In this document: positions 64-16,937 of the stretch, one piece after another
Layout of the letters: the number at the start of each line of letters is the position of its first letter
How positions within the stretch are numbered: position 1 is the stretch's first letter
Source: a virus
Strand: one strand, 5' to 3'
Virus record (IMG/VR): IMGVR_UViG_3300030105_000411
Span: 7,887-27,930 of that record
Length of the DNA: 20,044 nt
Program-made: the position numbers and the translations under genes
The notes under the pieces: model-generated
Database searches by the model: none
Told to the model about the DNA's origin: nothing
Seen by the model: the letters and a program-made list of their open reading frames with translations, nothing else

Positions 64-93
64 ACCCCCGCCTTAATAAGCGGGGGTTTTTTT
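64..93 (+). terminator. Rho-independent terminator, plus-strand polarity
   Basis: An 8-bp perfect GC-rich stem (ACCCCCGC at 64-71 pairing with GCGGGGGT at 80-87) encloses an 8-nt loop and is followed by an uninterrupted T-run to position 93. That is a textbook intrinsic terminator for transcripts arriving from the left. Read on the minus strand, the stem is followed by a mixed sequence (GAGTAAG) with no U-run, so it should work poorly for the long minus-strand operon. The T-run overlaps the stop codon (92-94) of the 2337-aa gene, so a convergent plus-strand gene probably ends just outside or at the left edge of the window. Confidence 0.8.
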
Positions 94-3000
94 ATGGGAG
101 GATGTTGGTTAGATTCCACTTGTTCCTACCCCAATAATCGTCTCGATGGTTTTCGAGGGAGGCGCGTAGTTTTGGGCTAATGGTGATGCCGTTATACATA
201 CCGGCTGTGGTATCGTAGTGTTTTAACAACGATTTAGCAGCCGCCCTAACGTCAATCATAAAGTAGGGGTGCCGCTCGTTGAAATCATTCGATTCATCCA
301 GCGCGTCTTGATACCCCTCAATATCACCCGTGTTATAACTTATGTAAAGTTGTTTCAGTATGTTGGTTCTACGCTCGTTTGTAGCACGGTCTATATTTTT
401 GGTACTCATGTTCCGCTCTTGCTCAAACGTCACCTTAGTAGGCGCGAAACCAAAGAACTGAAACAGTAACTCTCCGCTGGTTATATCGTCAGCGATAATA
501 TCCCCGCGCCGCGATTTAACCGATCCGTCATCCCAATACCTATAGGTTTTGAAGGCATTACGAACGGCGGCTGGACTCATAGTCTCCACACCGCGCCAGA
601 AACCGTTGCCGTCTTTTATATCGTTAAACCCACGGTACATTTGAGACGCAACACTAAAGCCCGGTCCAGCAAACAACTCTGCACCAACTTCCGCTAAAGA
701 ACGATCTTTATTGTACGGATTCATTCGGAAAAGTAAGTTAGCCAGACCAATACGATTAGCCACATCTACACCAAACAGCGCATTAACGCCGCCCTTGTAC
801 AGACCTTCCCCAAGATATTGACGAGCCGAAGTTTCAAAGTCTTCTTCATCTTCATCACGGAACGCATTAGCTATCATAGCTACAGCCCCGTATATCGGCA
901 TCCCTTGTGCGCCAGCAAGCAAGAGCGAAGATGCCATCATACCTTTAAGTTGTTTAAACGCCGTTTGACTCATAGTTTTGGCTACGCCGTCGGATATACC
1001 CTGCTCTTTCAAGTTCCTAGGTAGATCCACAAGGAATGATTGGCGTGCGATCTTGAACATGGTGGCGTACATCTGGACCCCGAAGGTCTTGTACATCATT
1101 CCCATACGACCCAACCCCTGTTGAGCGATGCGAGGGGCTGTAGCTAGGAATGCGCCACCATTCATTTCCTGCGCCTTAAATATTGCCTCGTTCGCAGCGG
1201 CTACTTCTTTCTCTTTCGTAGACATAGCTTTTTCTGCTTTGGTAGCTTTGTCTGAATTTAACCTGTTAAGTTCTAAGGTATACGTTGCTGTAAGAGCTAC
1301 TTGGCGGTTGTACCGTTCTGCATGATGGAATACCCAAGCAGAAGCCGCGCTAACACCATCCATAGCTGTTTTATCTCTACCAGACATCTCGATGCCCATA
1401 GTGTCGTAGTACATAGAGCGGTTTAGCTGCCCCCTCGCCTTCGCAACTTCAACTAGGGTTTTAAGGGTGTTAAGCCGATCTATTTTCTTCTTGTCTTCAG
1501 GCTTGTTGGGGTCCAACCCTTTTAGTTTTTCGGGACGTACAACGAGACTTCCATCTTCCATTGTATCAAAGTAGTTATCCATAGACCATGCGGCCTTAGC
1601 TTCTACGTCTGATTTTGTACTGCTTATAGTGCCTATTTTTCTTGTGCCGCCACTACCAGTAAACACAGTGCTAGCGTCTCTTATTGCTTGGTAGGTCTCT
1701 CTGTAACCGTACTTACCGCCAAGGATAGGGGCCATCATAAGAGGCACTTGCGAGAGGTTTACCACAGCGGAAGATACGTTTAAGCCCAGAGTACCTAAGA
1801 AAGCAACCCGGTTAACTTGAACCGCTAAACGGTTAAGAGCGTTCTTTGGTGGGTTCTTTGCAAAACTGGCTCGCGCCATAAGTTCGTCAAAGATTATCTT
1901 TGTGTTTTCCTGATCTGTTGGGTTGTTCTCTTGAACTGTGCGGTACTCTTCATCTAAGCGTGCAGCTATCTCATCTATACTATTACCGGCCTTCATGCGC
2001 TGTATCTGGGCGGACATATTATAGGCTTTCTGCCGGAAAGCATCCTGTGCGTCCTGTATAAATCCGGTAGTACCTGCGCCTTCGTTACCTCGTCGGGACA
2101 ATGATTTAGCAAAAGAAGATTCCGGTAAAGCGTTCAAGAACAATTCCATGAATTCATTCTGCACATCAGCGTCTACTTTGTTAGCCTGAAGGGTTGCAAG
2201 AACTTGGCCTACAAATGCTGTAGCTGGCGCGTCTTTACCGATATTCTTAATAAGTGCGGCAGCGTTCTGATATTCGTTTATAGTAGAAACTTTTACCCCG
2301 CCGGAACCATACCCATCAGCACCTTTGTTTTTATTATCTTTCATAAGCTGTGCTACAAAGGTTTTTCTGGCAGACGGGCTTTCAAATGCCATCTGTACCA
2401 TCTCTGGATTGCCTTCGGCGTCTCTTGCCTCAAAACTAAGCCACAAATCGCCTTTACGTGTCAGCGGGAAATACGGCTTTAACTTGCCTTTCTCAAACAA
2501 CTTATCAAATATGCTCTTCTGTAGTTTTTCTTTCTGCGCGTCAGGTATGTCCAGATTGTTAATCCGTTCCGCCAGCACAGCCTTTAACTCGTTAAACTGA
2601 TCTAGGTACGCATTTTCTAGGAGCTTGTACATTTTAGCCCCTTCTACATCGATCAGGTCTTTGTCTTTCTTCATGGCATCGTAGGTATCTCTTTCGGGCG
2701 TTCCTTTTTTAGGGGGCGCTTCGTATGGATGCACTTGAGCGCGAGTGCTTCCATATACTAACCTGTCGAAAGCCTCTTTATGCTTCCTACCGGCAGATTT
2801 AAAGTAGTCGGCTAACTGTTTCATAGTACCGTCTACGCGAGTTTCAGCGTTACTTGTGTCTCCTTGAAGCCTGTCTATAGCTTCGTATAGGGCTGGCCCA
2901 GAATTTAAACCAAATGCAGGGGCGACATCTTGAGCGATAAGTTGCATGGGGGATACATAGGCAAGAATCTTCTTTACTCGTGGCGTAGTAGTCCTGAGAA

Positions 3001-6000
3001 GGAATATGTCCTTAAACCTATCTACAGTCTTCTGTCTGTCCGCTTTAGTAAATTTGTCGTTAAACGCTTGCTGCATAGCGTCTATATTTTTTCCTAATTT
3101 GTCTAGGTCCAAACTCATGGAGGCAGCTTCGCGAAACTGCGGTGCGGGGGCGAGCATAGCTTCGATGAACTGATCGACTTGGCCCAACGCTTCTGTGATT
3201 GGTTTGGTATCCATACCAAGTTTGTTCCGCACGAAATTTATTATTGTCCTGTAGAACCGTTGCAGAGCATTTACCGGCTTGCCGTTCGCGATATAGTTAG
3301 CATTGGGGGTAATCCCCGCGAGCGTTTGCTGGAACTCTGGGTTACCGAAGGCTTCTGCTACAAACTCGTCTAGGTTCTGCGAGCCGTATACACTACCAAG
3401 TTGATCTTTAACGTCGTTGAAGAGCTTCTCTAACTGTTTAGTAGCAGTGTGTGACTTGTTATCCAGTGTTTCGGAAGTCAGCGCGTGCGTGGTTTCGTGT
3501 AAGATCGTGTGTGGATTGATGCCAGTTGCTGCGTCAACCTTGATGGTGTTGGTCTTGGGATCAAACAGACCGGCAACAGGTTTACCCGCCTCGTCGGTCA
3601 GGTTCTCTACGACTTCTATCTTGGTATCGCCCAGCTTCTGCGCCAGTGTACGAGCTACCTGAGACACACGGTTACTTGGGGACGTGATAGCAAGAGTTTG
3701 TAACGCTTCCTTTAACTTACCAGCACGCAGCAGGTTGTTGATTACTGGGTGCGTAGGTAAGTCGAGACCCACAACTTGACCTGATTCCAAAAGCAGTTCT
3801 TTAAGATCACCTTTAGTAACTGTCTCTTCGACGTTAATGCCCTCTAGATAATCTATGTTCTCGTCTAGTTGGGCATCAACATAAGACTTAACTTGCTTTT
3901 CATTTTCTGCGAGAAAAGCGTCAGACATCGCAGAGCGCCGTGGACCGGCTTCGGCAACAATATCTACATCGGCGTCTGGGTTAAATCTTTTGCCTTTGAC
4001 AGCTACCGTTTCAAGCGCAAGCAAATCAGCCATATCTTTTACGGTCTTAGGATCTAAATTATCTCGCACCCACCGCATTGCTTCTTTCGCGGAAGGCTTA
4101 CCCCTACCCTTAAAATGCCTCTGCTCCGCTTCTGTGTAAGCAGCCCCGGTAAACCCTTTGTCTCCACCTTTAAGCCTATAGGAACCATCAGGGGGACCAT
4201 ATACAAGGTCGTAGATTATCTCATCTAAAGCCTCTATAGGATCATCTTTCCTCCCAAAATATTTTTTTGCTCCTGACACATTTCTATCTTCTGCGGTTTC
4301 TCTCCGAGCTTCTGCGCGGCTAACTAAGCCACCAGAAACAAGTTTATTCACTTTAACAACGTCTGCATCAGTGAACGATATAATACGCTTTACTGACGTA
4401 GGTTTTGATTCTCTAAACGCTCTGTCACCAGATGTTACTACTGTACCTTCCGGCGGGGGTACCTGCTTACTCTTAGGCGATGGTGTACGTTTCTTCTTAC
4501 CAGAAACACCTTCAGGCACGATGGTTACGGTGTTTCCATCTTCATCTACACGAGTTTTAAACGGCTTTTGAGTTTCAGTCTCCTTAGCCGCAGCCTTCTT
4601 GGCAGGAGCTTTTTTCGCTGCTTTTTTCGTTGCTTTTTTCGCAGGAGCTTTTTTCGCAGGAGCTTTCTTACTCGCTGCTGGCCTAGCTTCTGCCGCAGTT
4701 TTGGCCGCATCTTCTAGAGCTGCCACTATATCTTCTGGTTTTGTTTGTTTTGTAACCGGTATATTATTTTCTTCAGCAATGCGCCGTAGATTTCTGGTTA
4801 TAGACCCCGGCATACCTTCTTTAGCGGCAGCAACAAAGTCTGCTGCTTCTGGAGTAATTCCTTTAAGTTCGGTAGCTGGTTTTGCGCGTTCACCTAGTGA
4901 AGCGAGTTGCTCTCCGACTCTTCCAATAGCTCCTCCAAGGCCATCCGTAGTAGCGCCCACTCCAGCGGATGCAGGTCCAGTAGATCCGGCGGTATCTCCG
5001 CGTAAGGATACGGATTGTGGTACAGGAGTGACATCGCCCGTTCTACCTGTAGGATCGTCAATCGATCCAAGGTCGATTGTGTCCCCGAAAAGTTGTTGTT
5101 GTCCGACATCTTGTGCTCCTTCTGTTACCTGTCCCTCTTGTTCTGTTGCGGGCGTAACAGCAACGTCGCTTATTAGTGAAGAGGTGACCCTCTCTTCTCC
5201 AAGTAACTCTCTAACTTTTTGTTGTTTCTGCTGATTAACTTCTATGGCACGAGGCTGTTTAAGACCTTCTGCATTTTTCTGTAGTGTTTCTAGTTGTTTC
5301 TGTAGTGTATCTCGTGCGGGACCGGGGTTACCAACGTCCTGCCCTTTCAAGTCTTTTATTCTTTTCGGACCCCAAGCAAGGTCTTCTTCCGTAAGGATAC
5401 GAGCGTTTCGACGTTGTTCCGCACCAGCTTGGTCTGCAGTTCTCCTTTGGGCAGCAGCTTCGGCACGTGCTTCTTGCCTTGTAGGCACAGGTTGGGTTCG
5501 TGCAGCCGCAACAGTATCAGTTGCTCTGTTAATAAGGCTATATTCTTGTTGCGTGGGAGTGGTGTTGGATACCCCATCTTCCGCTAATGCCTCTGAAAAA
5601 CGTTGGGCGGTGTTGGTTCGACTTGCTGTTCCGAGATCGGTCAATACCGAATCTAGTATTTCACCGCGCCGTTGGGCCGTCTGCTGTTCTCGTTGGGTAC
5701 CAAGTTGGCCCCCAATAGTTTGTAATTCGGATTCAGGGCGAAGTGTTTCGTCTACTGGGCCTTCTTGGGCGCGAGTAATTCTATCTTCTATTGAAACTTC
5801 TGGGGTAAAGGCGGAATCAAATCGAGCCGCTTTAGAATCATCCGCCGCTATTATTTCTTCTAGTTGGGCAGTTTCAGCAACGTCGATAAGATCACCCTGC
5901 CGAGGGTCAGGGGTAGTAGGAGGGCGTCTGCGGTTTTCTAGCTCTAGTTCAACCTGTTCAGGAGTTAGTTCAATACCTTGAGCAGCGGCTTCTTCGGCTC

Positions 6001-7105
6001 GTAGTTGATCTGCTAGACGAGTCATATCTGGTGTACGCTCGGTTACAGAAGGAGGGGGGAACAACTCACCTTGTTCTTGCCCTTCCCTAAGAGTAGGAAC
6101 ACCAGCGGGATCAACCGGATCAACCGGAGCAACCGAATCAGCCGGATCAACAGAGTCATCAGGATCATCTTCAAAACGCTTGCGACCGCCGTATACATCA
6201 CCGACACCGCGTACAGTGCCACCTACTAGACCCGCAGCTACACCAACTTCAAAGTATTCATCTAACGCTTCGTCGCTAGCAAGATCTTGACCTGCTTGGA
6301 GTCGTTCTAATACCTGCTGACCAATTTCGGTGGGTACTTCTGTAACTACACCCGCGCCAACACCTTTAGCACCTCTGGTAAATATACCCCCGCCCATAGC
6401 GGCTTTACTTGTAAACCCACCAATAAGAAATCTATCTGCTATGAAATCAAGAATAGACTGTGGTATTGCTGTAAGTGCCGCCGCACCTTCGGATACTTCT
6501 TGTAGGTTACCCGCCGCAACTTCTTCTTTCTGGGCTTCACGATTAGACCCATAGAAGAACGGCAGGTTAGCGGCTATACCACCAACTACGGCTCCAACAG
6601 GGCCAGCCACTAAAAATCCAGCACCGGCACCAGCCAGTGTGCTACCTAATTGAGGAACTTGCGCTCCAAAGGTTGCAGCCGCGTAATCTGCAAGCCCGCC
6701 AAGACCGTCAATATCTTTAGTGCTACGAGTAGCACCAGCGGTTTCTTCTAGCTGCCGCCTGTTTTCTTCTACTATATCTGTTCCGTACCGCTCTAGCCCT
6801 TCAAGTCCGGTGACACCTCCAACACCTTCAACCGCAGACCCATACATTTGCTGGAGTAGATCAATACCCCTACCAACACCAGTAGAAAATAGACCCTCTT
6901 CTTGGCGAATCGAACCGAGCCGCCTCCGTTTTTCTTCTTCTGATTTTTCTGGTTCTTCTGGCTCTGTTCGGGAAGTTCCGCCAAGCGCCTTGTATTGTTC
7001 CATCTGAACAATAGACAGAATTTCTCCCTCTGAAGCACCTTCAGGGGCTTGTACTTCGTAGATTCTGCCGTCGCCGCCATCTACTTCGTAAATACGATCA
7101 GCCAT
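92..7105 (-). CDS. Giant polyvalent virion protein with zincin and PLxRFG-like motifs (2337 aa)
   Basis: Probably a DNA-ejected or internal virion protein; the exact role is unknown. Visible modules: a duplicated RIYEV motif at residues 4-8 and 14-18 in an N-terminal segment common in large phage proteins; glycine-rich hydrophobic stretches at about 135-185 and 237-305; a long disordered acidic and Gln-rich linker at about 310-760 with an Asp-Pro repeat; a Rho-N/SAP-like helical segment at 765-804 followed by a Lys/Ala/Pro tail at 813-841; a metallopeptidase motif HETTH at 1203-1207 with a possible third zinc ligand in DEFVAEAF (E1247 or E1251); PLTRKG at 1547-1552, resembling the PLxRFG motif of large phage polyvalent proteins; and hydrophobic segments at about 1765-1795 and 2051-2085. 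The start is ATG, 14 nt after the 705-aa gene, with a weak AAGAG upstream. It is the last gene of the operon. Protease activity and ejection are inference. The reading frame is uninterrupted and the translation is coherent throughout. Confidence 0.9.
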   Translation of the reverse strand: MADRIYEVDGGDGRIYEVQAPEGASEGEILSIVQMEQYKALGGTSRTEPEEPEKSEEEKRRRLGSIRQEEGLFSTGVGRGIDLLQQMYGSAVEGVGGVTGLEGLERYGTDIVEENRRQLEETAGATRSTKDIDGLGGLADYAAATFGAQVPQLGSTLAGAGAGFLVAGPVGAVVGGIAANLPFFYGSNREAQKEEVAAGNLQEVSEGAAALTAIPQSILDFIADRFLIGGFTSKAAMGGGIFTRGAKGVGAGVVTEVPTEIGQQVLERLQAGQDLASDEALDEYFEVGVAAGLVGGTVRGVGDVYGGRKRFEDDPDDSVDPADSVAPVDPVDPAGVPTLREGQEQGELFPPPSVTERTPDMTRLADQLRAEEAAAQGIELTPEQVELELENRRRPPTTPDPRQGDLIDVAETAQLEEIIAADDSKAARFDSAFTPEVSIEDRITRAQEGPVDETLRPESELQTIGGQLGTQREQQTAQRRGEILDSVLTDLGTASRTNTAQRFSEALAEDGVSNTTPTQQEYSLINRATDTVAAARTQPVPTRQEARAEAAAQRRTADQAGAEQRRNARILTEEDLAWGPKRIKDLKGQDVGNPGPARDTLQKQLETLQKNAEGLKQPRAIEVNQQKQQKVRELLGEERVTSSLISDVAVTPATEQEGQVTEGAQDVGQQQLFGDTIDLGSIDDPTGRTGDVTPVPQSVSLRGDTAGSTGPASAGVGATTDGLGGAIGRVGEQLASLGERAKPATELKGITPEAADFVAAAKEGMPGSITRNLRRIAEENNIPVTKQTKPEDIVAALEDAAKTAAEARPAASKKAPAKKAPAKKATKKAAKKAPAKKAAAKETETQKPFKTRVDEDGNTVTIVPEGVSGKKKRTPSPKSKQVPPPEGTVVTSGDRAFRESKPTSVKRIISFTDADVVKVNKLVSGGLVSRAEARRETAEDRNVSGAKKYFGRKDDPIEALDEIIYDLVYGPPDGSYRLKGGDKGFTGAAYTEAEQRHFKGRGKPSAKEAMRWVRDNLDPKTVKDMADLLALETVAVKGKRFNPDADVDIVAEAGPRRSAMSDAFLAENEKQVKSYVDAQLDENIDYLEGINVEETVTKGDLKELLLESGQVVGLDLPTHPVINNLLRAGKLKEALQTLAITSPSNRVSQVARTLAQKLGDTKIEVVENLTDEAGKPVAGLFDPKTNTIKVDAATGINPHTILHETTHALTSETLDNKSHTATKQLEKLFNDVKDQLGSVYGSQNLDEFVAEAFGNPEFQQTLAGITPNANYIANGKPVNALQRFYRTIINFVRNKLGMDTKPITEALGQVDQFIEAMLAPAPQFREAASMSLDLDKLGKNIDAMQQAFNDKFTKADRQKTVDRFKDIFLLRTTTPRVKKILAYVSPMQLIAQDVAPAFGLNSGPALYEAIDRLQGDTSNAETRVDGTMKQLADYFKSAGRKHKEAFDRLVYGSTRAQVHPYEAPPKKGTPERDTYDAMKKDKDLIDVEGAKMYKLLENAYLDQFNELKAVLAERINNLDIPDAQKEKLQKSIFDKLFEKGKLKPYFPLTRKGDLWLSFEARDAEGNPEMVQMAFESPSARKTFVAQLMKDNKNKGADGYGSGGVKVSTINEYQNAAALIKNIGKDAPATAFVGQVLATLQANKVDADVQNEFMELFLNALPESSFAKSLSRRGNEGAGTTGFIQDAQDAFRQKAYNMSAQIQRMKAGNSIDEIAARLDEEYRTVQENNPTDQENTKIIFDELMARASFAKNPPKNALNRLAVQVNRVAFLGTLGLNVSSAVVNLSQVPLMMAPILGGKYGYRETYQAIRDASTVFTGSGGTRKIGTISSTKSDVEAKAAWSMDNYFDTMEDGSLVVRPEKLKGLDPNKPEDKKKIDRLNTLKTLVEVAKARGQLNRSMYYDTMGIEMSGRDKTAMDGVSAASAWVFHHAERYNRQVALTATYTLELNRLNSDKATKAEKAMSTKEKEVAAANEAIFKAQEMNGGAFLATAPRIAQQGLGRMGMMYKTFGVQMYATMFKIARQSFLVDLPRNLKEQGISDGVAKTMSQTAFKQLKGMMASSLLLAGAQGMPIYGAVAMIANAFRDEDEEDFETSARQYLGEGLYKGGVNALFGVDVANRIGLANLLFRMNPYNKDRSLAEVGAELFAGPGFSVASQMYRGFNDIKDGNGFWRGVETMSPAAVRNAFKTYRYWDDGSVKSRRGDIIADDITSGELLFQFFGFAPTKVTFEQERNMSTKNIDRATNERRTNILKQLYISYNTGDIEGYQDALDESNDFNERHPYFMIDVRAAAKSLLKHYDTTAGMYNGITISPKLRASLENHRDDYWGRNKWNLTNILP
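4583..4669 (-). repeat. Lys/Ala/Pro histone-H1-like repeat tract in the 2337-aa protein
   Basis: Residues 813-841 consist of KAPAKK, KATKK and KAAKK units, encoded by near-identical DNA blocks with A-rich runs on the coding strand. Such tails occur in histone H1, AlgP and bacterial HU or Rho-N fusion proteins, where they bind DNA non-specifically. Here the tail directly follows a Rho-N/SAP-like helix pair. A DNA-contacting segment is a reasonable inference. The tract is also prone to replication slippage. Confidence 0.85.
6098..6172 (-). repeat. Asp-Pro/Val-Asp short tandem repeat in the 2337-aa protein
   Basis: Imperfect 9 to 12-nt units (plus-strand GGATCAACC variants) encode an acidic run of SVDPAD, APVDPV and DPAG units at about residues 312-336. 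It separates the N-terminal glycine-rich hydrophobic part from the long disordered linker, so it looks like a flexible hinge. No further function can be read from it. Confidence 0.6.
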
Positions 7106-7119
7106 ATTTTGCTCTTTTA

Positions 7120-9237
7120 CTACGGCGACACAGGTCTAGAACCAATGACTCTACCCGGCGTAGAACCAGAACCAGAACCAGAACCAGACCCAGACCCAGA
7201 CCCACCAGCAGGCATATTGGCTAATATACCCGACTGTTGAAGAGAGTACATCTTGAGCGAGTTGTAGGTTTTAAGCGTAGCATCGGCAAGGCTACGCCAC
7301 TGCGTCTTTATTTCTTCTCGAAGTTGTTTTGCTTTTTCTAGATCTTTTGGCTTACCAGCAGTCTCTAACGCACGCAGCCTAGGATCAGTTTGTAACGCAT
7401 CAGAAATTAACTTATCATACATCTGGTTGTATTTAGAAATGTTGAATTCAATTTTATCAATTACTTCTACCCAAGAACTTCTATTTTTAGCTTGACCTAT
7501 CATAGACTTAATAGAGTTTGCTTCTGCCTCTAACCCACCCTGCATGTTAGCAATATCGCCTTTTAATTTATTACCAGCGTTAGCTATTAGCACACCTATC
7601 AGGTCTCTCCGGTATCGAGCATCTTCCGATAGATTTGCAGTATCTGCTTGTAAGAACCCAATCGCGTCTTTAGTCAAATTAGTCCGCATATTGCTGACTA
7701 ATTGTTGATTATTTACAGCCGCCTGTTTTCTAGCATTTTCAGATAGTTCGTATTGTTTGTCGCCTGAAGCCATCGACCGACCACTAACTGCTAAGTCGTC
7801 TTTAACACCCAGATCTTCACGTGCAAATACGTTAGCGAGATCTAGTTGATCCTGCATTTGGTCTCCTCGGCGCATATCCGAGGCAGCGCGTCCGATATTA
7901 GCAAGAGCGCCTTGGCCTCCAGAACGAGCGAGAAGATCATAGAACCGGTTATCTTTCCTGCTGGCCGTGCTACGTTCGTTTAAGTCTCGTTGCTGTCGTG
8001 TTTGTTCTTCGCGTATTCTGGCAATACCAGATCTGTTTTGGAATGTATCAGCCTGTGCTTGGCGAGCAAGTCTTTCTGCCTCAGAATCTCTGTTTTGTTC
8101 TCTAAGATTCCTAGCGTAGATACCTTGCTCTTTCCCGGTTATATCTGCTATGCGTGCGGGATTAACTGCTTGGCCTCTATAGCCTACTGTTCTACCTCTC
8201 TTTACTGCATTCTCATCTATAACAGGAGCCGTAATCGGTGAGTATGCGGTAGAGATACCGCCAGTGTTTGGTATAGGTGGGGGCACACTAAAGTCAGTAG
8301 CTCCACCTACTACATTAGGATTAAGAGATGCGTTATTAGCCATATTCGGTGGTGAGGTTACGGGAGCAACACCTACATTACCTGCTGCGGCTTGGTCACT
8401 TGCTTCAGCAATAGCCGCGTCGGTATTTGGCTGTCTCAAGTCACCCATAGCTACATAATTTTGACGTGCAGCCTTGTTCATCGCGTCTATAGCGGGTGTC
8501 CATGAAGTACTTCCTCCTCTTTTCTGAAGAGGATCTGGTGCTGCCGCATCTCTGAGACCTAAACCTCTCATAGCAGCGCCGTATACCCTACCCGCAATTT
8601 TTTGTGGTGCTGCGGCGGCATCGTAAGCGGCGGCTGCCGCTGTTGTGGCTATATTAAGTGGACCTGCATCTCCTTTAGCCACTGCAATAGGAATATTTAA
8701 AGTTTCCAGAACTTGCTTTTGTTCGGCCTCCGTCATATTCATAAATCTTTCTTCAGAAACCCCACCTTTTGCTAAAAGTTTTTTAGCTAAATCCATAGCG
8801 GCTTTAGCGGCTTCGCTTTCAACCTTATCCCCGTTTGCAAAACTAACAATACCACCACCTGCCATATTAGCCATATTCGGTGCTGATTGACCCGCAACGC
8901 CGGTCATTTGAGCGCCTGCGGGAGGAGCGCCTGCGCCTGCTCTCTGTATATTCTGTTGCTGTTGACGTTGGTTTTGTTGAGCAACGCCGCCTACTTGCTT
9001 AATAAGATCGTCTTTAGTACGCCCTACAGCTTCTTCTCCACGCTGTTGAGCTACAGTCTGCGGGTTCTGTTCCATAGACAGTTGCAACTCTCTAGCTGCA
9101 GCGTCTTTCTCAGACTTAATTTTTTGCAACGCCAATAGATCCATAAGATCTTGGTTCATCTGGTAGTTTTTTTGTAACGCGGCAGGATTATTCCGGTACG
9201 CATCCGCTTTTTCTTGCACCATACGGTCAATAGACAT
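7120..9237 (-). CDS. Helical virion-associated protein with GGI motif and Gly-Ser tail (705 aa)
   Basis: No enzymatic domain is recognised. Residues 1-100 are highly charged and Gln-rich helix (dense Q, E, K, R), matching an N-terminus I recall from marine phage structural regions. A short motif MAGGGIVSFANGD lies at 125-137 and has counterparts in two neighbouring proteins. The middle (about 140-340) is Ala/Pro-rich and probably disordered. The section from about 350 to 675 is again strongly helical, with many Arg, Gln and Asn residues and likely coiled coil. The C-terminus ends in alternating Gly-Ser. There is no signal peptide. The start is ATG with AAGGA at 9245-9249, 7 nt upstream, and lies 15 nt after the 333-aa gene. 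By size and place it could be an internal core protein analogous to T7 gp15 (747 aa), but I see no sequence evidence of homology. Confidence 0.85.
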   Translation of the reverse strand: MSIDRMVQEKADAYRNNPAALQKNYQMNQDLMDLLALQKIKSEKDAAARELQLSMEQNPQTVAQQRGEEAVGRTKDDLIKQVGGVAQQNQRQQQQNIQRAGAGAPPAGAQMTGVAGQSAPNMANMAGGGIVSFANGDKVESEAAKAAMDLAKKLLAKGGVSEERFMNMTEAEQKQVLETLNIPIAVAKGDAGPLNIATTAAAAAYDAAAAPQKIAGRVYGAAMRGLGLRDAAAPDPLQKRGGSTSWTPAIDAMNKAARQNYVAMGDLRQPNTDAAIAEASDQAAAGNVGVAPVTSPPNMANNASLNPNVVGGATDFSVPPPIPNTGGISTAYSPITAPVIDENAVKRGRTVGYRGQAVNPARIADITGKEQGIYARNLREQNRDSEAERLARQAQADTFQNRSGIARIREEQTRQQRDLNERSTASRKDNRFYDLLARSGGQGALANIGRAASDMRRGDQMQDQLDLANVFAREDLGVKDDLAVSGRSMASGDKQYELSENARKQAAVNNQQLVSNMRTNLTKDAIGFLQADTANLSEDARYRRDLIGVLIANAGNKLKGDIANMQGGLEAEANSIKSMIGQAKNRSSWVEVIDKIEFNISKYNQMYDKLISDALQTDPRLRALETAGKPKDLEKAKQLREEIKTQWRSLADATLKTYNSLKMYSLQQSGILANMPAGGSGSGSGSGSGSGSTPGRVIGSRPVSP
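7161..7203 (-). repeat. Hexanucleotide tandem repeat encoding (Gly-Ser)n
   Basis: About seven tandem 6-bp units lie near the 3' end of the 705-aa gene: plus-strand ACCCAG copies at the right and AACCAG copies at the left. On the coding strand they read GGGTCT or GGTTCT and encode a Gly-Ser run close to the C-terminus. The two unit types are sorted into blocks, which suggests recent unit-by-unit expansion. A gain or loss of a unit keeps the frame. Confidence 0.85.
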
Positions 9238-9244
9238 AATTAAA

Positions 9245-9249
9245 TCCTT
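9245..9249 (-). promoter_or_regulatory. Ribosome binding site of the 705-aa gene
   Basis: AAGGA on the minus strand lies 7 nt before the ATG at 9237, within the 15-nt gap after the stop of the 333-aa gene. It supports this start over later in-frame ATGs. Confidence 0.7.
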
Positions 9250-9252
9250 ACT

Positions 9253-10254
9253 CTAAAACGCGCTGAATGAGTCGTTTACACCCATCCCACTACCACTACC
9301 AAAGTAATCTGACGTTGCGTTAGTCGCCGCTGCGTTATAGCCGCCAGTGTCAGTGCCGCTACCAAACAGACCGCTAAGAAGGCCACTAACACCACCTTTT
9401 CCTAGAATACTTTGTGTTAACCCCTGTGCCCCAGAAGCACCACCAAGTATATTAGCGAGAGCACTAGGTTGCGCGTAGCTGTAGCTTTGAGCAGCAAGAG
9501 GTAGACCCTGCAAAAGTGATTGCTGGTACTGCACTTGTTTATACGGGAACGCTTGCTCTTCTTCAAATTGCTTTTTATCAGCCGCAATACCTTCAGCTTC
9601 GATAGTTCGTTGTTGACCACCTAAATCTGCTTGGCGCTGTAGAGCATTTAGACCATACGTATTTGTCTGATTCTGTGCCTGCATAGCGCGATTTTGCTCA
9701 GTGTTAAACTGCTGTTGGGCCTTATTGTAAGCATCAAGATACCCTAACCCAGTAATCTCTGAGGCTTTATCAAGGTAAGAACGATCAAGCTCCGACTCCA
9801 TAACAGCTTGACGACCACCACCGTATGCCCCAGCGCGGCTTAACCTACTTGCGTTATCAATACGTTTAAGCTGCTGCTGCCGGTTTAGTTCGTCTAGTTG
9901 GGGTTGTAATGCGTTCTGCACGTACGGGTTCATGTACTGCGTAGCTTGCTCTGTGCCAAATGTTTGCGGTGTGAAGGCTGTCATCTGTTCTGTAGGTACT
10001 GCTAAGTTAGCAATGCCTTGGAATGCAGCAGTCTGAGGCGCACTTTGACCCGCACTAAGCGGCCCTGTGTATGCTTGGTAGGGCATATCGGATACAGCCT
10101 GTCCACGCCCAAGCATCTCCGTTACATAAGGGCCAACCCAGTTAGAAAGGGAGGATTCGGCGCCAGTTTTCTGACCGATTATACTCTCAGGAGCCGTAGC
10201 CGCTGCAGTACCCTGCGCGGTTGTTATGTTACTATCTGTTACGTCATTTGACAT
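9253..10254 (-). CDS. Gln/Ala-rich helical phage structural protein (333 aa)
   Basis: Function unproven. The type is familiar from marine phage late regions, where it sits among structural genes. A polar N-terminal leader (1-35) is followed by a segment with WVGPYVTEMLGRGQ and MPYQAYTGPLSAGQ. Next is a long helical region (about 95-250) with AGAYGGGRQAVMESELDR, many Gln, and few hydrophobic runs, likely an extended coiled coil. The C-terminus (about 265-333) is Gly/Ser-rich with a glycine-zipper-like ILGGASGAQG and SGLLSGLFGSG, which could associate with membranes. The start is set by a perfect AGGAGGT at 10259-10265, 4 nt before ATG. It belongs to the five-gene block of putative internal or ejected proteins. 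The family resemblance is from memory and would need a profile search. Confidence 0.85.
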   Translation of the reverse strand: MSNDVTDSNITTAQGTAAATAPESIIGQKTGAESSLSNWVGPYVTEMLGRGQAVSDMPYQAYTGPLSAGQSAPQTAAFQGIANLAVPTEQMTAFTPQTFGTEQATQYMNPYVQNALQPQLDELNRQQQLKRIDNASRLSRAGAYGGGRQAVMESELDRSYLDKASEITGLGYLDAYNKAQQQFNTEQNRAMQAQNQTNTYGLNALQRQADLGGQQRTIEAEGIAADKKQFEEEQAFPYKQVQYQQSLLQGLPLAAQSYSYAQPSALANILGGASGAQGLTQSILGKGGVSGLLSGLFGSGTDTGGYNAAATNATSDYFGSGSGMGVNDSFSAF

Positions 10255-10258
10255 ATTT

Positions 10259-10265
10259 ACCTCCT
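10259..10265 (-). promoter_or_regulatory. Strong Shine-Dalgarno of the 333-aa gene
   Basis: A full AGGAGGT on the minus strand lies 4 nt before ATG 10254 and overlaps the stop codon of the preceding gene. Together with the site at 10884-10890 it is among the strongest in the window, suggesting that the 204-aa and 333-aa proteins are made in higher amounts than their giant neighbours. Confidence 0.8.
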
Positions 10266-10878
10266 ACGCCGGTAAGAACTTGGCAGGATCAATCTCTTTA
10301 CCCTGTTTTGTCGTGCCGGTACGAGCTTTACGAATACGATCCATCATAGTATATAGCGTTTTAGCGCCAGCATCTGAGTTACCGTTACCAAGGTGACTTA
10401 CAACATCAGCCGGGATAACAAACTCACCATCACTCAACATTGCTTCCTGTTCGCCTTCGATGCTTGCAGGCACCTCGTCCGCCATACCATCACTAGCGCC
10501 GTTAAGATACTTACCTTCTCTAAGTTGAGCAATACCTCCTCCGGCCATACCGGTACCAACAGGACGTGCCTGCCGTGCCGGGTTGTTAGTGTTTAATGCG
10601 GCAAGCCCCTCTGCACTCATAGATGCAGGAAGTGTACCTCTTGGTATAAATCTTGGTTCGGTAAAGTACCTTTGACCGCTACTTCCGGGGCGGCGGGTAG
10701 GGTCATATGTACCCGGCACGCGCTCTCGTAGCACATCATAGCTGGGAATTTCGCCTTGGTACCCTACTTTTTGTACTTTCGGATCATTTAGACCAAAATA
10801 CTCTGCCCCAGCGCCAATACCTAAATTAATAAGTTTTTCAGCACCACCGCTACTTAAAAGATCATCAAACCAAGTCAT
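10264..10878 (-). CDS. Phage protein with DGEFVIPADVVSHLGNG domain (204 aa)
   Basis: A small protein of unknown molecular function. The N-terminus (1-25) is amphipathic and hydrophobic. Residues 35-85 are Pro/Arg-rich and probably extended. A GGI motif, MAGGGIAQLREGKYL, lies at 111-125. Residues about 126-188 form the recognisable part: DGMADEVPASIEG, then LSDGEFVIPADVVSHLGNG, then DAGAKTLYTMMDRIRKARTG. From memory this module recurs widely in phage structural regions, as a free protein or at the end of larger virion proteins. The stop of the 1687-aa gene overlaps the start as TAATG, with a perfect AGGAGGT 5 nt upstream. In T7-like order this place holds small internal virion proteins such as gp14 (196 aa), but that is only positional. 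Confidence 0.85.
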   Translation of the reverse strand: MTWFDDLLSSGGAEKLINLGIGAGAEYFGLNDPKVQKVGYQGEIPSYDVLRERVPGTYDPTRRPGSSGQRYFTEPRFIPRGTLPASMSAEGLAALNTNNPARQARPVGTGMAGGGIAQLREGKYLNGASDGMADEVPASIEGEQEAMLSDGEFVIPADVVSHLGNGNSDAGAKTLYTMMDRIRKARTGTTKQGKEIDPAKFLPA

Positions 10879-13800
10879 TATCTACCTCCTAGAGCGCTTA
10901 CAATCCCACCCTGTGCTGCATTACGTTGCTTAAAAGGGTTAGTGAAACCTGCTTCTTGCTGTGGTGTAGCGAATATACTCTCACCAAAAGGATCATACAC
11001 ATAGTCAATACTCGCAACATCTGGCGTTTTAACTTCTACGGGTGACGTTTCAAGTAACTGTTGCATATAAGCCTGTTGATTTTGTTCCGTTTGCCTTTTT
11101 ACCCTATCAGCTTCCTGTGTCTGGATCTGTTGCTGTATTTGCTGCTGCATCTGCATCTGCTGCATCTGCTGTTGCATCTGACCTTGTATACCTGTAGCAG
11201 CAAACTGACTATTAGGGGATAACTGCGTTTGCGGTACGGTACCAGCTTTAACTTGTTGTAACATAGTTTGGTCAGCAATATCTATTACATTATCGGCATT
11301 TACATCATATTGTATCTGCTGTTGAGTAAGTGGCGTAGGTTCTGTTAACACTTCTTGTTGTGCTATAATATCTGTAACAAAATCTATATCGGCATCCGTA
11401 ACTTCTTGCCCCGATTTACCTAGCATATTAGCAATGCTGTTATAGGCAGCAACAGGCAGAGCTTCTTGTACACGTCCACCAAGATCGCTTTCGGCGTATT
11501 GCCCCGTTAAACGTGTTACATCGGCAGGCAAAGCATCAAAGAATCCTGCCGTTTCAAAAGCAGTTCTAGCTTCGCCTTCCGTAACCACTAGTGGGTCAAC
11601 CTCTTCAGCAAGCAACCCGGCTTGTGTTGTTTGGAAATTTGGGTCGTTAGCTTGAGATATATACCGGGTAATATCGTCTTCTGTAGGTTTGTAATTCTGG
11701 GCTGCAAAAAACTGTTCTACTTCGGGTCGCGTAACCTGACGTGGATTTACGTAAGGATTGATAGTTGCAAGCTGTGTAGTTTGGAAATCAACATCGCCCT
11801 GACCTGCAAATAACGCGGCTTCAGCCTCTTCGGCGTTGTACCCAAGACTAGTAAAGTAGTTTAGCACTTCATCAGTTGTTGTCTGACGGGGATCTACATA
11901 CGAATCAATAGTCGCAAGTTGTTGAGTTTGTAGAGTTTGACCTACATTCTGGTTTATTTCTGCCTGTGTAGGTGTATACCCAAGACTAGCAAAATAATTA
12001 GTTACTTCATTTGCATCAGTGTAGTTCTGGTTAATGTAGTCGTCTATACCCGCCTGCAAAATATTACTGCTAGTTGCCGGTAACGTGTTTGGTGTTTGGG
12101 TTACAGTAGGTGCAGTGCCTACGAACCGTTGAATATCCGTAGAAGAAGGTACAAACGGAACGTCCGCTGTGTTCCCCGAGAACCCAGACTGAACTTCATT
12201 GAGCGTGTTGTAACTGTTGTTGTTAGCAGAGTTAAGTATGTCTACAGCAGTGTTAAACCTAAATACACCATCAGGATCTTGAGTTGCATCTAGAGTGGTT
12301 CCATCAAACTGATAGTCCGCATCATACCCAAACGTTTGTTTAATAGTAGCTTCACCAGCAGCACGCACTTCTGGGTCTGGCGATCCAGCATAGTTAGCAG
12401 CTTGGTTTATAGCGGGATTAAGGTTTACAAGCGCGTTACCTAAAACGTTGTTTGTATTACGGGTTTTAGGTTGCGTTGGGTCAGTATCTGTTGGCCCTCC
12501 CCCCGGCGTATCAAACGGTGACGGGGGTCTGGGTTCTCCCCCGGAAAGTGCGTTATACACGCTGCCCGCAGCTATAATAGAAGAGGAAGTTCCAGTGCCT
12601 GCTAAAAATCCTAACGTAGAGTTTGCAGTCAAGAGATTACCTAAATCACTGTACGCCCCACCCGGCTTAAACAGATCAGAATCGGGGTTTATCTCTTTTA
12701 CGGCTTGATAGTTAAAGTAGGCGGACGCGCCTTCTTCTACCGCTTCTGAAACACCTTCACCTGCAATACCGGTAGCTTTCTTACCTAAGTTATTGAGGGC
12801 GTACTTCATATTTTTACCGCCGACAATACTCGATACAAATTTGTGACCGGGATCAAACACACGGCCTGCAACGCCTTCTATGGCCGCTGCCATAAGGCCG
12901 TTAGTTATAGCATATTCCTGCGCTCTAGCTGACGCTGCTTCCGTTGTCATACCCGGCAGCTTCATCAACTCATCATACGTTACAGCAAACGTTTCACCGG
13001 CAGTAGCACCAGCAGTTTCTAATGTCTGTAATCCGGCGTTTGATGTCCACGCAGCGCGACTACCCCATTTTTGAGAGACTTGTTTAACCGTCTCCTCCGC
13101 AAACTCTCTGCCTGCCTGCCTACCAATATACGCTCCACCTTTAATTCCAGCTTTAATCCCCGTGCCTACACCGCCAGAAAGAAGCAGTAATGGTAGTTCC
13201 TGTATAATTTCTTTAGCTATTACTTCTCTTAGCACCACGCTTCTGTACTTAGGATCGAGCAATCCCCCACCAATAGCTTGAAGAGTTCCTACAATACCTT
13301 CAGCATCTTGATAGCTTTTGTTCCACTCTCCTACTAATTTGTTGTAGTCTTCTGGCTGTGTAGCCGTAGCAATACCAATCATTGCTTGAGTAGCCTTACC
13401 CAGATCGGTTGTTCGGGCGTCTATGGGGTTATTCCGGCTATTACGGAAGAAACTAACAATCCCGTTAAAGCCGTTTAATAGTTCTCCGCCAGCCCCTAAT
13501 GCAGTACCTGCGTTTGTACGAACCCCATCTAGGTTACCTACATCAATCCCGTATGTTTCCTTAATTTTGACTTTATTAGTGTCTAGATATTCAATGGTAT
13601 TTTTAACACCTATAGAAAGATCTACGAGGCCACGAGAGACGAAGTCTAGTTTGCTATACTCCTCTTCGTTCAATTTTAGTTTGCCTGCAGTATCTATTGC
13701 TATAAGAGGATTTATCTTAGCTACTTGTTGCAAAGTGGGCGGTAGGGATTGCAGCGGAGAGCCAAAAACTACGCCCCTGTCGTCGGCGGGAACAATAGTA

Positions 13801-15941
13801 CCATCGGGTTGTACGTTTCCACCAGCCTCTAGCCTCTGTTTCTCTACGCCGTCTTTATCTAGTACAATAAATTTGTTCTCAGACGGACTGTATACTGTAC
13901 GAGTTTCAGTATTATAATTTGGGTTAAAGGTAAGTTTAGTCCAATTAATATCACCAGTCGTAAATTGAAGGGCCTGATCTCTACCGGACGCAGAAGCCGC
14001 GTAGTTAAGTGATTGGTTTATTCGGATTAGACGAGCTTTACCTGAAGCTATATCGGCATCCGTAGTGCCGGGAGTCTTACCTATCGGTTTAGCGACTCGT
14101 TCTACAGCAGACATACTAGGTATATCGGGTACACTGTTAACATAAGCATTTATAGCCGCTATAGCCGGAGTAAGAGCTGGATCTGCGGACAAATTAAGAT
14201 TTTTTGCTGCTTCTAGATCATTCCCGATTGCTGTTCTTGCTGCAGCTACAAGACCATTTTCAAACTCTGAATAGCCCTCCATGCTCGACCATTTTTTATC
14301 TTCTTGAGAAAATGCCACATCATAAACTTTTTCCCGTAATGTGTCGTTTATTCGTGTATCGAATTCTTGTTTGTTCGTAAAGTTTGAGCGACCTGTAGCA
14401 AGCCAATGGGCGTGAGCATCAACGTTAGACGGAATACTATAAAGCTCTCTATATTCCCCCTCGTTAAACTCGGGGCGTAGTGCTGTTGTAAAAGACTTAT
14501 TTGCTACTTCAAATAATGGTGTACTAACAGTATCTAGATACTGTTGACTCGTAAACATACCCTCTTCCGCTTTTTTAACTGCGTCTACCGATACGGTATA
14601 CATATTTACGTTATTGTCATATTCAGCACGAAGATCTGATAGAGGAGCTATTGTTTCGCTGTATACCTCATTCCATTTTGTAAGACGTTCAAGAGCTTGC
14701 ACTCCCGCCGTAGAACCATCACTATTTTGATAGGTATCTCTATCTCGCTGCCAATCTGCGTAACCGTAGAACCCTATACTTTCAATGTTGAATTTTCCGG
14801 CTTTAATAGCTTCAGCTTTAGATATTAGTTCGTTAACACTTTCGGCAGATACATCAACACTTAACGCATTTTCGCTTGCTGTTTGTAAGCTGTTTTCATA
14901 CGTAGCTGTACTGCCAGTTATGTTGTCTAATGCAGCCTTTAGACCCCCGCTAGTAACTTTGTTTATAGCGTTGTTTAAGTCTTTTTGAAATACACCGGAA
15001 AGGCTAGCTTTATATGCTTCATACGGATCTGCGCCTGTATAAGCCGTTCTAGAAACATCACTTATAACCTTAGTTATTTGCGCCGCAGCTATTTCAGATA
15101 TGCCTGTATTATTTGCAAGGTAGCTGCTAATAGCTTTTGAAGAGACAGCAGCAGACGTAATAACACTAGCTAGCTCTCTCTCACTCGGTAGTTCTCCTGT
15201 TGTAACTAAACTAGCCGCCGTTGTTCCAGCACCACTCGTAATAACATCTTGTACAATTTCTGGTAGATCATCCCAAGTATCAACTATATCCGACAACTGA
15301 AAACCAATAGATTCTGTTGCGGAATTAATATTCTCAATGAAAGCGTTACTCTCAAAGTAATCCATTCCGACATCAGCCGAACCATACCCCGTACCATCAA
15401 CGGCTGCTTCTGCGGCTGCGATATTAATACTATCCTTTAGGTACGACGTACCTCCCGAAAGAGCCGCGCCAGTAGCGCCACTCATAGCCCCGCTTAATAC
15501 GGCTTTACCAACATCCCCCCCAGTAGCTGCTGCTGTAATCGCACCTCGAACAGCTCCGGCAGCAGCTCGCCCAGCAATATTTCCTGCTACTGCACTACCA
15601 ACTTCGCTACCAACTTCGCTACCAACCGCGCTACCTATCATAGGACCAACTTGAGCGCCTATATAGGACGAACCTACAGCTATAGCGATGTCTTTAATAT
15701 CACCACCTTGTATAGCGGTACTGGCTCCTTGTATAATAGGTATCGCCCAAGCATTTCCGGTAGCAATAGCAGCGATAGAAGCAATGGTTGTAATCGGGTC
15801 ATCCAACATCCCCTCGACGACACCACCAACCATATCTACTACTGGTTCAAGGATATCATCTACAACAAACTCAACAACATCCTCTATTGCATCACCTACC
15901 CACTTTATAGGCTTAGTAACAACGTCAATAACAGCAGACAT
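10878..15941 (-). CDS. Giant repeat-containing, membrane-active virion protein (1687 aa)
   Basis: No enzymatic motif is recognised. Features in order: an acidic amphipathic N-terminus (1-45); glycine-zipper hydrophobic segments at about 50-165 with GSEVGSEVGSAVAG, typical of sequences that oligomerise in membranes; a long helical middle with YRELYSIPSNVDAHAHW near residue 500; a second Gly/Ala-rich hydrophobic region at about 920-1130 containing AGEGVSEAVEEGASAYF; four copies of a roughly 50-residue repeat starting at I1299, I1345, I1394 and L1444, with a degenerate half-copy before them; one dockerin/EF-hand-like calcium loop DVNADNVID at 1546-1554; a Gln/Met-rich coiled tract at about 1584-1625; and a C-terminal GGIVSALGG motif. 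The start abuts the previous stop (TAGATG) with GAGG upstream. It may be an ejected trans-envelope protein like T7 gp16. That is inference, since no transglycosylase motif is visible. Confidence 0.88.
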   Translation of the reverse strand: MSAVIDVVTKPIKWVGDAIEDVVEFVVDDILEPVVDMVGGVVEGMLDDPITTIASIAAIATGNAWAIPIIQGASTAIQGGDIKDIAIAVGSSYIGAQVGPMIGSAVGSEVGSEVGSAVAGNIAGRAAAGAVRGAITAAATGGDVGKAVLSGAMSGATGAALSGGTSYLKDSINIAAAEAAVDGTGYGSADVGMDYFESNAFIENINSATESIGFQLSDIVDTWDDLPEIVQDVITSGAGTTAASLVTTGELPSERELASVITSAAVSSKAISSYLANNTGISEIAAAQITKVISDVSRTAYTGADPYEAYKASLSGVFQKDLNNAINKVTSGGLKAALDNITGSTATYENSLQTASENALSVDVSAESVNELISKAEAIKAGKFNIESIGFYGYADWQRDRDTYQNSDGSTAGVQALERLTKWNEVYSETIAPLSDLRAEYDNNVNMYTVSVDAVKKAEEGMFTSQQYLDTVSTPLFEVANKSFTTALRPEFNEGEYRELYSIPSNVDAHAHWLATGRSNFTNKQEFDTRINDTLREKVYDVAFSQEDKKWSSMEGYSEFENGLVAAARTAIGNDLEAAKNLNLSADPALTPAIAAINAYVNSVPDIPSMSAVERVAKPIGKTPGTTDADIASGKARLIRINQSLNYAASASGRDQALQFTTGDINWTKLTFNPNYNTETRTVYSPSENKFIVLDKDGVEKQRLEAGGNVQPDGTIVPADDRGVVFGSPLQSLPPTLQQVAKINPLIAIDTAGKLKLNEEEYSKLDFVSRGLVDLSIGVKNTIEYLDTNKVKIKETYGIDVGNLDGVRTNAGTALGAGGELLNGFNGIVSFFRNSRNNPIDARTTDLGKATQAMIGIATATQPEDYNKLVGEWNKSYQDAEGIVGTLQAIGGGLLDPKYRSVVLREVIAKEIIQELPLLLLSGGVGTGIKAGIKGGAYIGRQAGREFAEETVKQVSQKWGSRAAWTSNAGLQTLETAGATAGETFAVTYDELMKLPGMTTEAASARAQEYAITNGLMAAAIEGVAGRVFDPGHKFVSSIVGGKNMKYALNNLGKKATGIAGEGVSEAVEEGASAYFNYQAVKEINPDSDLFKPGGAYSDLGNLLTANSTLGFLAGTGTSSSIIAAGSVYNALSGGEPRPPSPFDTPGGGPTDTDPTQPKTRNTNNVLGNALVNLNPAINQAANYAGSPDPEVRAAGEATIKQTFGYDADYQFDGTTLDATQDPDGVFRFNTAVDILNSANNNSYNTLNEVQSGFSGNTADVPFVPSSTDIQRFVGTAPTVTQTPNTLPATSSNILQAGIDDYINQNYTDANEVTNYFASLGYTPTQAEINQNVGQTLQTQQLATIDSYVDPRQTTTDEVLNYFTSLGYNAEEAEAALFAGQGDVDFQTTQLATINPYVNPRQVTRPEVEQFFAAQNYKPTEDDITRYISQANDPNFQTTQAGLLAEEVDPLVVTEGEARTAFETAGFFDALPADVTRLTGQYAESDLGGRVQEALPVAAYNSIANMLGKSGQEVTDADIDFVTDIIAQQEVLTEPTPLTQQQIQYDVNADNVIDIADQTMLQQVKAGTVPQTQLSPNSQFAATGIQGQMQQQMQQMQMQQQIQQQIQTQEADRVKRQTEQNQQAYMQQLLETSPVEVKTPDVASIDYVYDPFGESIFATPQQEAGFTNPFKQRNAAQGGIVSALGGR
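10884..10890 (-). promoter_or_regulatory. Strong Shine-Dalgarno of the 204-aa gene
   Basis: AGGAGGT on the minus strand lies inside the last codons of the 1687-aa gene, 5 nt before ATG 10878. The TAATG overlap plus this site allows both coupled and independent initiation. Confidence 0.8.
11128..11187 (-). repeat. Gln/Met-rich trinucleotide-like repeat
   Basis: Imperfect CAG/CAA/ATG codon repeats (plus-strand CTGCTGCATCTGCATCTG pattern) encode runs such as QMQQQMQQMQMQQQ near residues 1585-1605 of the 1687-aa protein. Predicted structure is a continuous helix or coiled coil. The tract is prone to in-frame length change. Confidence 0.75.
11460..12049 (-). repeat. Four tandem ~50-residue protein repeats in the 1687-aa gene
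   Basis: Copies begin at I1299 (IDDYINQNYTDANEV), I1345 (IDSYVDPRQTTTDEV), I1394 (INPYVNPRQVTRPEV) and L1444 (LAEEVDPLVVTEGEA), with periods of 46, 49 and 50 residues. Each copy has a YV(D/N)P opening, a polar helix ending in an aromatic pair plus GY, an acidic (E/D)xI helix, then a QT-rich linker before the next copy. DNA identity between copies is low, so the duplication is old and held by selection on the fold. A degenerate copy (STDIQRFVG) precedes the first. Confidence 0.85.
15594..15641 (-). repeat. 12-nt direct repeats encoding glycine-zipper Gly-Ser-x-Val units
   Basis: Three to four near-identical 12-nt units (plus-strand CTACCAACTTCG) encode VGSE, VGSE and VGSA at about residues 101-116 of the 1687-aa protein. 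The spacing puts a Gly every fourth residue, the pattern of glycine-zipper helices that pack in membranes. Confidence 0.75.
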
Positions 15942-16746: not shown

Positions 16747-16937
16747 TAGCTCATAAACCACGCTGTAGACTCTGCATACTCCTGCTTTAGAGCATCTTTG
16801 AGTGTGTTATCTATTTGATTAAAATACAACCGCAACGTTTCATTGTTCTGACTAAAAAACCCTGATTCGTATTCTTCTGGAGCAAAAGACAATGGAGGAG
16901 ACACAAAGTCCATACTTGTTTTAAAGGTTGACGACAT
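16746..16937 (-). CDS. Small conserved-looking phage protein (63 aa)
   Basis: A short soluble protein of unknown function. The N-terminus is polar and Pro-containing (FVSPPLSFAPEEYESGFF). The C-terminal half is one amphipathic helix (LRLYFNQIDNTLKDALKQE). It has no cysteines, signal peptide or membrane segment. Evidence that it is real: a good GGGAGG Shine-Dalgarno at 16943-16948, 5 nt before ATG, and TAATG overlaps with both neighbours, leaving no unexplained bases. By position it may be a small assembly or connector factor. Confidence 0.7.
   Translation of the reverse strand: MSSTFKTSMDFVSPPLSFAPEEYESGFFSQNNETLRLYFNQIDNTLKDALKQEYAESTAWFMS

Follow-up and report, generated by a model that had tools for sequence, protein, structure and literature searches.

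What function unites five consecutive genes of the IMG/VR virus record IMGVR_UViG_3300030105_000411 (positions 7,887 to 27,930) that encode proteins of 1687, 204, 333, 705 and 2337 amino acids (aa)? The window, a stretch of 20,044 nucleotides within a 27.9-kb viral contig, had previously been interpreted without database searches (the sequence-only reading) as carrying a candidate DNA-ejection apparatus comparable to T7 gp14, gp15 and gp16. Our computational analysis indicates, with a probability of about 0.77, that the block constitutes the module for internal (ejection) proteins in an uncultured podovirus of ~60 kb. In this module, the 333-, 705- and 2337-aa proteins take the places of P22 gp7-gp20-gp16 or T7 gp14-gp15-gp16, joined by the 204-aa protein as a fourth component. 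An ejection role is supported for the 333- and 2337-aa proteins by homology, synteny, a virion-detected homolog and predicted fold, and for the 204- and 705-aa proteins by their position, by gene fusions and by a transglycosylase found in relatives. Least certain is the 1687-aa protein, which is placed by position only and probably represents a fifth virion protein that varies between lineages.

Late-operon position and conservation

The five open reading frames (ORFs) have exactly the lengths given by the sequence-only reading, all start with ATG and follow one another directly on the minus strand, with spacings of ≤15 bp or a 1-bp overlap (Table 1). The tail-type genes reported ahead of them are also present, as a 622-aa P22 gp10-like stabilization/tubular-tail-B-type protein is followed by three small ORFs and then by the block, which forms the end of the late operon. 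Because a 61.7-kb relative (G001) keeps the order (1701, 204, 332, 682 and 2296 aa) at 71-85% identity for the genes compared, and because this order recurs in dozens of IMG/VR contigs, the five ORFs are real genes. G001 also contains a P22-size portal, TerL and gpT-like capsid genes, and no tail tube, sheath or tape-measure matches were identified among ten G001 proteins scanned.

Searches of viral contigs recovered 44 relatives of the 333-aa protein and 324 PLxRFG relatives of the 2337-aa giant, 80 of which were retained. Of the complete ORFs of 333 type, 66 of 74 are followed by a giant as the gene after next (a count not reduced for redundancy), the exceptions being mostly contig ends or fusions, and a 333-type gene is located at most three genes upstream in 57 of 63 complete giants with the C-terminal tail. 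The 204 and 333 homologs are fused into single ORFs in several contigs (L125, L140, L142-L149) and thus are likely to work together, and in one contig (L069) the 333-type ORF is enlarged to 1143 aa and a separate 705 gene is absent. Among bacterial genome bins, relatives of the giant's zincin-tail region were found only in two metagenome-assembled genomes, labeled Verrucomicrobiales (L157) and Betaproteobacteria (L158), with unproven host assignment.

Cultured relatives in the phage collection were reached via the 622-aa protein (DSL-LC04, HTVC023P/027P, MinM2/Pag-Yong1, CRP-901/902) and via the 204-aa protein (Caulobacter phage RW and its kin), and the synteny extends to DSL-LC04, MinM2, RW and HTVC023P/027P. 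At the operon end, the inspected cultured genomes encode a stabilization protein, a DGEFV protein, proteins of ~300 aa and ~280-650 aa, and a large last gene product of variable length (1068, 2803, 722, 1342 and 868 aa), an order that is less regular in CRP-902. Sequence comparison reveals homology to these phages in the 333 family and in the C-terminal part of the 204-aa protein.

The 333- and 204-aa proteins

The DNA ejection protein family phrog_4287 is matched at a threshold of 1e-3 by 23 of 45 members of the 333 family (best 4.5e-19), the window protein itself scoring E 0.0011. The family also aligns with the 'DNA injection protein' of Vibrio phage ABTNL-3 (hhalign, 97%), and phiM5_27, which others reported from virions, is homologous to the 333-aa protein (E 3.5e-22). 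The AlphaFold2 (AF2) model is a long helical hairpin (helices 101-141 and 146-250), in keeping with the long polar helices noted earlier, and its turn holds the invariant residues G142, G145 and R148. The C-terminal tail is glycine-rich, although this signal is weaker.

The 204-aa protein ends in the pattern GG(I)...DG.AD.(V/I)PA...LSDGEFVIPADVV, which reads ARGGYAVKGPGTGRSDSIKANLSDGEYVI in RW_580, and homologous C-termini were identified in DSL-LC04, MinM2, RW, HTVC027P and HTVC023P. In one contig (L119), which lacks a separate 1687-type gene, a 1009-aa ORF represents a 204 homolog split by ~790 inserted residues, an insert that may stand in for the 1687-type protein.

The giant carries a zincin region that matches gp16-class ejection proteins

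The zincin motif of the 2337-aa protein described by the sequence-only reading is real, with HETTH at residues 1203-1207 and E1247 downstream. H1203, E1204, H1207 and E1247 are invariant in 61 aligned sequences, which were themselves picked through the motif; a fairer measure is the presence of HExxH in 96 of 97 ORFs with both domain matches. The giant thus combines HExxH and a downstream glutamate in a multidomain late-gene protein, as in polyvalent proteins of the MPTase type, and no second enzymatic domain was found with Pfam or NCBIfam.

A profile of the zincin and tail matched two gp16-class chains in the PDB (hmmsearch), 9sfn_G (E 1.6e-8) and PhiM1 gp48 (8vb2_A, E 4.3e-5), both across the zincin and the adjoining region. 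The AF2 model of residues 1145-2337 is confident (predicted local distance difference test, pLDDT, 79.7; predicted template modeling score, pTM, 0.71). Foldseek searches of BFVD with this model returned polyvalent proteins first, followed by gp16-class proteins at E 2.8e-10 to 4e-8, namely the internal core protein of Ab05, internal virion protein D of CRP-4/CRP-5 and the RSB3 core protein, the core-protein matches being phiKMV-type. The giant is thus related to solved and named members of the gp16/internal virion protein D class and is, like them, the last and largest gene of its cluster.

Residues 268-528 of PhiM1 gp48 have been termed endolysin/exotransglycosidase-like (PMC11440229). The stretch of 8vb2_A that aligns with our zincin profile (residues 379-581) contains LLHEAAHAKT (HEAAH), and judging from this alignment the domain may be a zincin and a candidate for reannotation. 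The virion RNA polymerase (vRNAP) of N4 has the same layout of a zincin followed by a helical body (PMC12633501). The proposal that a zincin replaces the transglycosylase in this block does not hold, as regions of zincin type are already present in ejection proteins of the gp16 class (phiKMV-type, PhiM1 gp48 and N4 vRNAP) and transglycosylases are found in relatives, either in the 705 slot or in the last gene.

PLxRFG tail and further segments of the giant

The giant matches the PLxRFG profile NF032893 with 305 bits (E 1e-90), well above the curated cut-off of 100 bits, and the DarB-like family phrog_10089 (3.5e-43). The literal motif is replaced by PLTRKG (window positions 2450-2467); lysine takes the place of the F in 45 of 61 aligned members of this lineage, and the P, R and G are invariant. 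Because the curated family-defining profile still passes, the sequence PLTRKG is a variant of the motif and not grounds for exclusion from the family. The same C-terminus also closes the last genes (1790 to 4985 aa) of Skulduggery, POI1126, LASTA, Mwe-JY07, 1F273_PE002, ABTNL-3 and Mel-JY34, which differ in their upstream domains. The DarB-like giant gp69 of JC1 is abundant in CsCl-purified virions, with 51 unique peptides detected by mass spectrometry (PMC9144972), and very large putative ejection proteins such as Pavtok gp27 have been discussed before (PMC8402733).

A profile of the N-terminal 40-aa motif (22 sequences) matches OH_37, the last gene of Ochrobactrum phage OH (E 1.3e-7). The motif resembles P22 gp16 by eye, but the match is not significant (5.7 bits). 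As the capsid-targeting signal of P1 DarB lies within its first 30 residues (PMC9024508), the N-terminal motif of the giant could by analogy be a packaging signal. Residues 790-863 (window 4517-4738) consist of histone H1-like AKKAPAKK repeats, which possibly bind DNA in the head.

The 705- and 1687-aa proteins

No homolog of the 705-aa protein was found outside the lineage by BLAST or hhalign, and hhalign returned no match to T7 gp15 or P22 gp20. Only its position, its helical character and a T7-like SLT transglycosylase domain in the 705-slot proteins of two relatives (L138 and L097) favor a placement with the gp15/gp20 type. The last gene of RW also encodes an SLT domain and matches phrog_342, an internal virion protein with endolysin domain, and transfer of transglycosylase domains between ejection proteins has been documented (PMC8954989). 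A single weak PDB match of the 705 family, to a de novo design, was disregarded, and the glycine-zipper signal of the 705-aa protein derives mostly from a GSGSGS tail and not from a membrane segment.

The 1687-aa protein yielded no PHROG, Pfam or phage matches. Its homologs occur in 12 non-redundant loci, complete recognized ones spanning 1116-2677 aa, and glycine zippers are in excess (17 versus 5.8 in shuffles, 0/300), concentrated near residues 91-116 and 924-936. The glycine-zipper or glycine-rich segments reported earlier were thus recovered as this excess, one clear segment in the giant and the weaker 333-aa C-tail. The 1687-aa protein also contains ~50-residue repeats (D-P-x-x-x-T...YF..LGY, residues ~1300-1450) and an EF-hand/dockerin-like loop, DVNADNVIDIAD, at residues 1546-1557.

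Three proteins of the block share a GG(I/V) motif, located at the C-terminus of the 1687-aa protein, before DGEFV in the 204-aa protein and as an invariant GGI in the 705-aa protein. The pattern is present in 28 of 40 members of the 705 family and 18 of 30 of the 204 family (1.8 in shuffles in both cases), and it is possibly a shared assembly or processing signal.

Weighing the ejection reading and its alternatives

The reading of the block as a T7 gp14-16-like late module is supported most directly for the 333- and 2337-aa proteins, through their homology, synteny and predicted folds, and membership of the 1687-aa protein is its weakest part. The earlier statement that no homology is recognizable was wrong for the 2337-aa (NF032893, gp16-class) and 333-aa (phrog_4287) proteins, as the profile searches it had recommended returned the PLxRFG, phrog_4287 and 9sfn/8vb2 matches. 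The structure comparison it had also recommended gave no structural match to T7 gp14/15 or P22 gp7/20.

Several results weigh against an ejection role. Virion presence was reported by others for relatives and for none from this lineage. Comparisons by hhalign (333- and 705-aa proteins) revealed no link to P22 gp7/20/16 or T7 gp14/15/16, and BLAST and profile searches with the 333-, 705- and 204-aa proteins gave no homology to T7 gp14/15 or P22 gp7/20. In Foldseek searches of the PDB, the 333-aa model had no significant match and the zincin-tail model none at E<0.1, 8vb2 not being among the matches listed, and the gp16-class BFVD matches have low TM-scores (0.2-0.37). The fold identity of the modeled zincin-tail with 8vb2 is accordingly unproven. 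Because the PDB search of the same predicted model had nothing at E<0.1, the comparison shows that a helical character by itself is not enough to yield small E-values.

The giant is also a polyvalent/DarB-like cargo protein, which raises the question of whether it serves mainly in anti-defense or host takeover, being carried in the head outside the channel, with the smaller proteins alone forming the ejectosome. Its PLxRFG/DarB-like family, with polyvalent relatives containing methylase, helicase, ART and LPD domains, is consistent with such a role, and P1 DarB protects DNA against restriction. MPTase is furthermore the commonest domain of polyvalent proteins (PMC5512222). We nevertheless consider this unlikely, since no methylase, helicase or ART match was found in the giant (Pfam, PHROGs, NCBIfam), its gene occupies the gp16 slot of every syntenic block, and the zincin plus body matches gp16-class structural proteins.

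A tail-fiber reading of the whole block was rejected on the gp16-class and ejection-protein matches. In a narrower form, the 333-aa (perhaps also the 204-aa) protein might be an external tail-tip, spike or fiber assembly component that is not ejected. Its homologs phiM5_27 and OH_40, annotated as tailspike or tail fiber, end in a Peptidase_S74 chaperone domain, as in tail fibers; this counts against ejection, yet searches of the window protein and its close relatives did not detect this domain, phrog_4287 is named for DNA ejection, AF2 predicts an extended hairpin of helices and the gene is fused or adjacent to ejection-slot genes, making an external position rather improbable. Least probable is that the phage has a longer tail than assumed, with the 1687-aa protein as its genuine tape-measure protein. 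Variable length, abundant glycine zippers and the LSDGEFVI motif of the adjacent 204-aa protein, resembling tape-measure PHROGs, would fit, but the 622-aa protein belongs, like its relatives, to the podovirus type, the 1687-aa protein has no tape-measure match, and the ten G001 proteins scanned match no tape-measure, tube or sheath family. At 1e-3 no window member of the 204 family matched a tape-measure PHROG, only a 759-aa protein of DSL-LC04 doing so, and the short DGEFV motif of the 204-aa protein is all that is shared with tape-measure proteins.

From gene order, homology, conservation of motif and active-site residues and predicted folds, all established computationally, we infer how an ejection module of this kind could function. 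All five proteins would be packaged near the portal and exit ahead of the DNA once the tail binds. The glycine-zipper and helical proteins would form the lining of a passage across the outer membrane and periplasm. The giant would pass through the tail unfolded and then refold on its helical PLxRFG body, either at the inner membrane or spanning it. Its zincin domain might cleave the giant, so that parts of it are released or matured, or might act on a protein of the envelope or the host.

Table 1. Positions in the window of the five genes, the upstream structural gene and features within their products
Feature	Position	Strand	Remarks
1687-aa glycine-zipper protein gene	15941-10878	-	length-variable upstream partner
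1687-aa C-terminal (A)xGG(I/V) motif	10881-10922	-	
204-aa protein gene	10878-10264	-	
204-aa C-terminal LSDGEFVIPADVV motif	10384-10557	-	similar to tape-measure-protein motif
333-aa ejection-protein family gene	10254-9253	-	
705-aa protein gene	9237-7120	-	slot of T7 gp15/P22 gp20 (by position)
Invariant GGI motif near residue 128 of 705-aa protein	8827-8868	-	40-member family A5
2337-aa giant, last gene	7105-92	-	gp16/internal virion protein D class; PLxRFG (DarB-like, polyvalent) with zincin
N-terminal 40-aa motif of giant, IYEVxxxDGxxYEVxAPEGASExEI	6986-7105	-	common to many otherwise different last-gene giants
Hydrophobic glycine-zipper segment, giant residues 157-179	6569-6637	-	hydropathy scan; phrog_6958 (virion structural protein) match in this region, E 1e-12
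Zincin metallopeptidase-like domain of giant	3236-3673	-	HETTH (1203-1207) at 3485-3499; E1247 at 3365-3367
PLxRFG tail-700 helical module, giant residues 1544-2314	164-2476	-	NCBIfam NF032893; alignment A2 with 7 cultured phages
622-aa stabilization/tubular-tail-B-like structural protein	16937-18805	-	phrog_3287, E 1.1e-60; tblastn to podovirus stabilization proteins

Upstream of the stabilization gene, the window contains a lysis cassette of Rz, Rz1 and lysozyme (19009-20022) with overlapping Rz and Rz1 genes. A strong terminator-like hairpin on the plus strand (64-87) marks the end of the minus-strand giant gene and insulates convergent operons; in a related contig (L008), genes beyond the end point of the giant are oriented in the opposite direction.

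Comparison with known systems

Each of three elements, namely ejection clusters, PLxRFG giants and zincins within ejected proteins, is already known on its own, and no paper joining them was found in the open-licence literature. The conserved four- to five-gene block of this lineage and the sequence link between zincin-PLxRFG proteins and the gp16 class appear to be new. They provide a mechanism-bearing annotation for >5,200 unannotated residues in a common group of uncultured podoviruses, and the zincin raises the question of a protease within the ejected machine and of its target.

Like T7 gp14-gp15-gp16, PhiM1 EP3-OEP-TEP and P22 gp7-gp20-gp16, the block is a late-operon cluster after a tail protein, with rising sizes and the largest gene last. 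Further likenesses are the mobile transglycosylase domain in relatives and the sequence-profile match of the zincin region to PhiM1 gp48 and 9sfn. It differs from these three-protein systems in being larger, with at least four and probably five proteins, and from T7 and P22 in the lack of detectable homology of its 333-, 705- and 204-aa proteins and of a transglycosylase within the window block. With the DarB-like PLxRFG giants of the Bcep22/LASTA/POI1126 type it shares the C-terminal 700-850 residues, the last-gene position, a ~60-kb podovirus genome and smaller virion proteins ahead of the giant, but whereas LASTA-type giants, including that of LASTA itself, contain SLT, methylase, helicase and LPD39 domains in their N-terminal 3000+ residues, the window giant contains a zincin and low-complexity sequence. 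Similar to the C-terminus of N4 vRNAP (C1 zincin and C2 helical), it is a giant, putatively ejected protein in which an HExxH zincin precedes a very large helical body; unlike vRNAP, it has no RNA polymerase domain, and a sequence link between C2 and the PLxRFG tail is not shown.

These comparisons suggest a common chassis for classical ejection proteins and the giant anti-restriction proteins of the DarB-like kind. We tentatively propose, as an idea that may well need revision, that a widespread uncultured podovirus lineage uses an expanded ejectosome of four to five proteins. In it, a zincin on a PLxRFG helical chassis would define a subclass of the gp16 type, bringing phiKMV/PhiM1 core proteins, N4 vRNAP and DarB-like polyvalent giants together in a single architecture of ejected proteins (a chassis with exchangeable cargo), and the GGxV/DGEFV motif, shared with tape-measure proteins, would mark proteins that travel ahead of the DNA.

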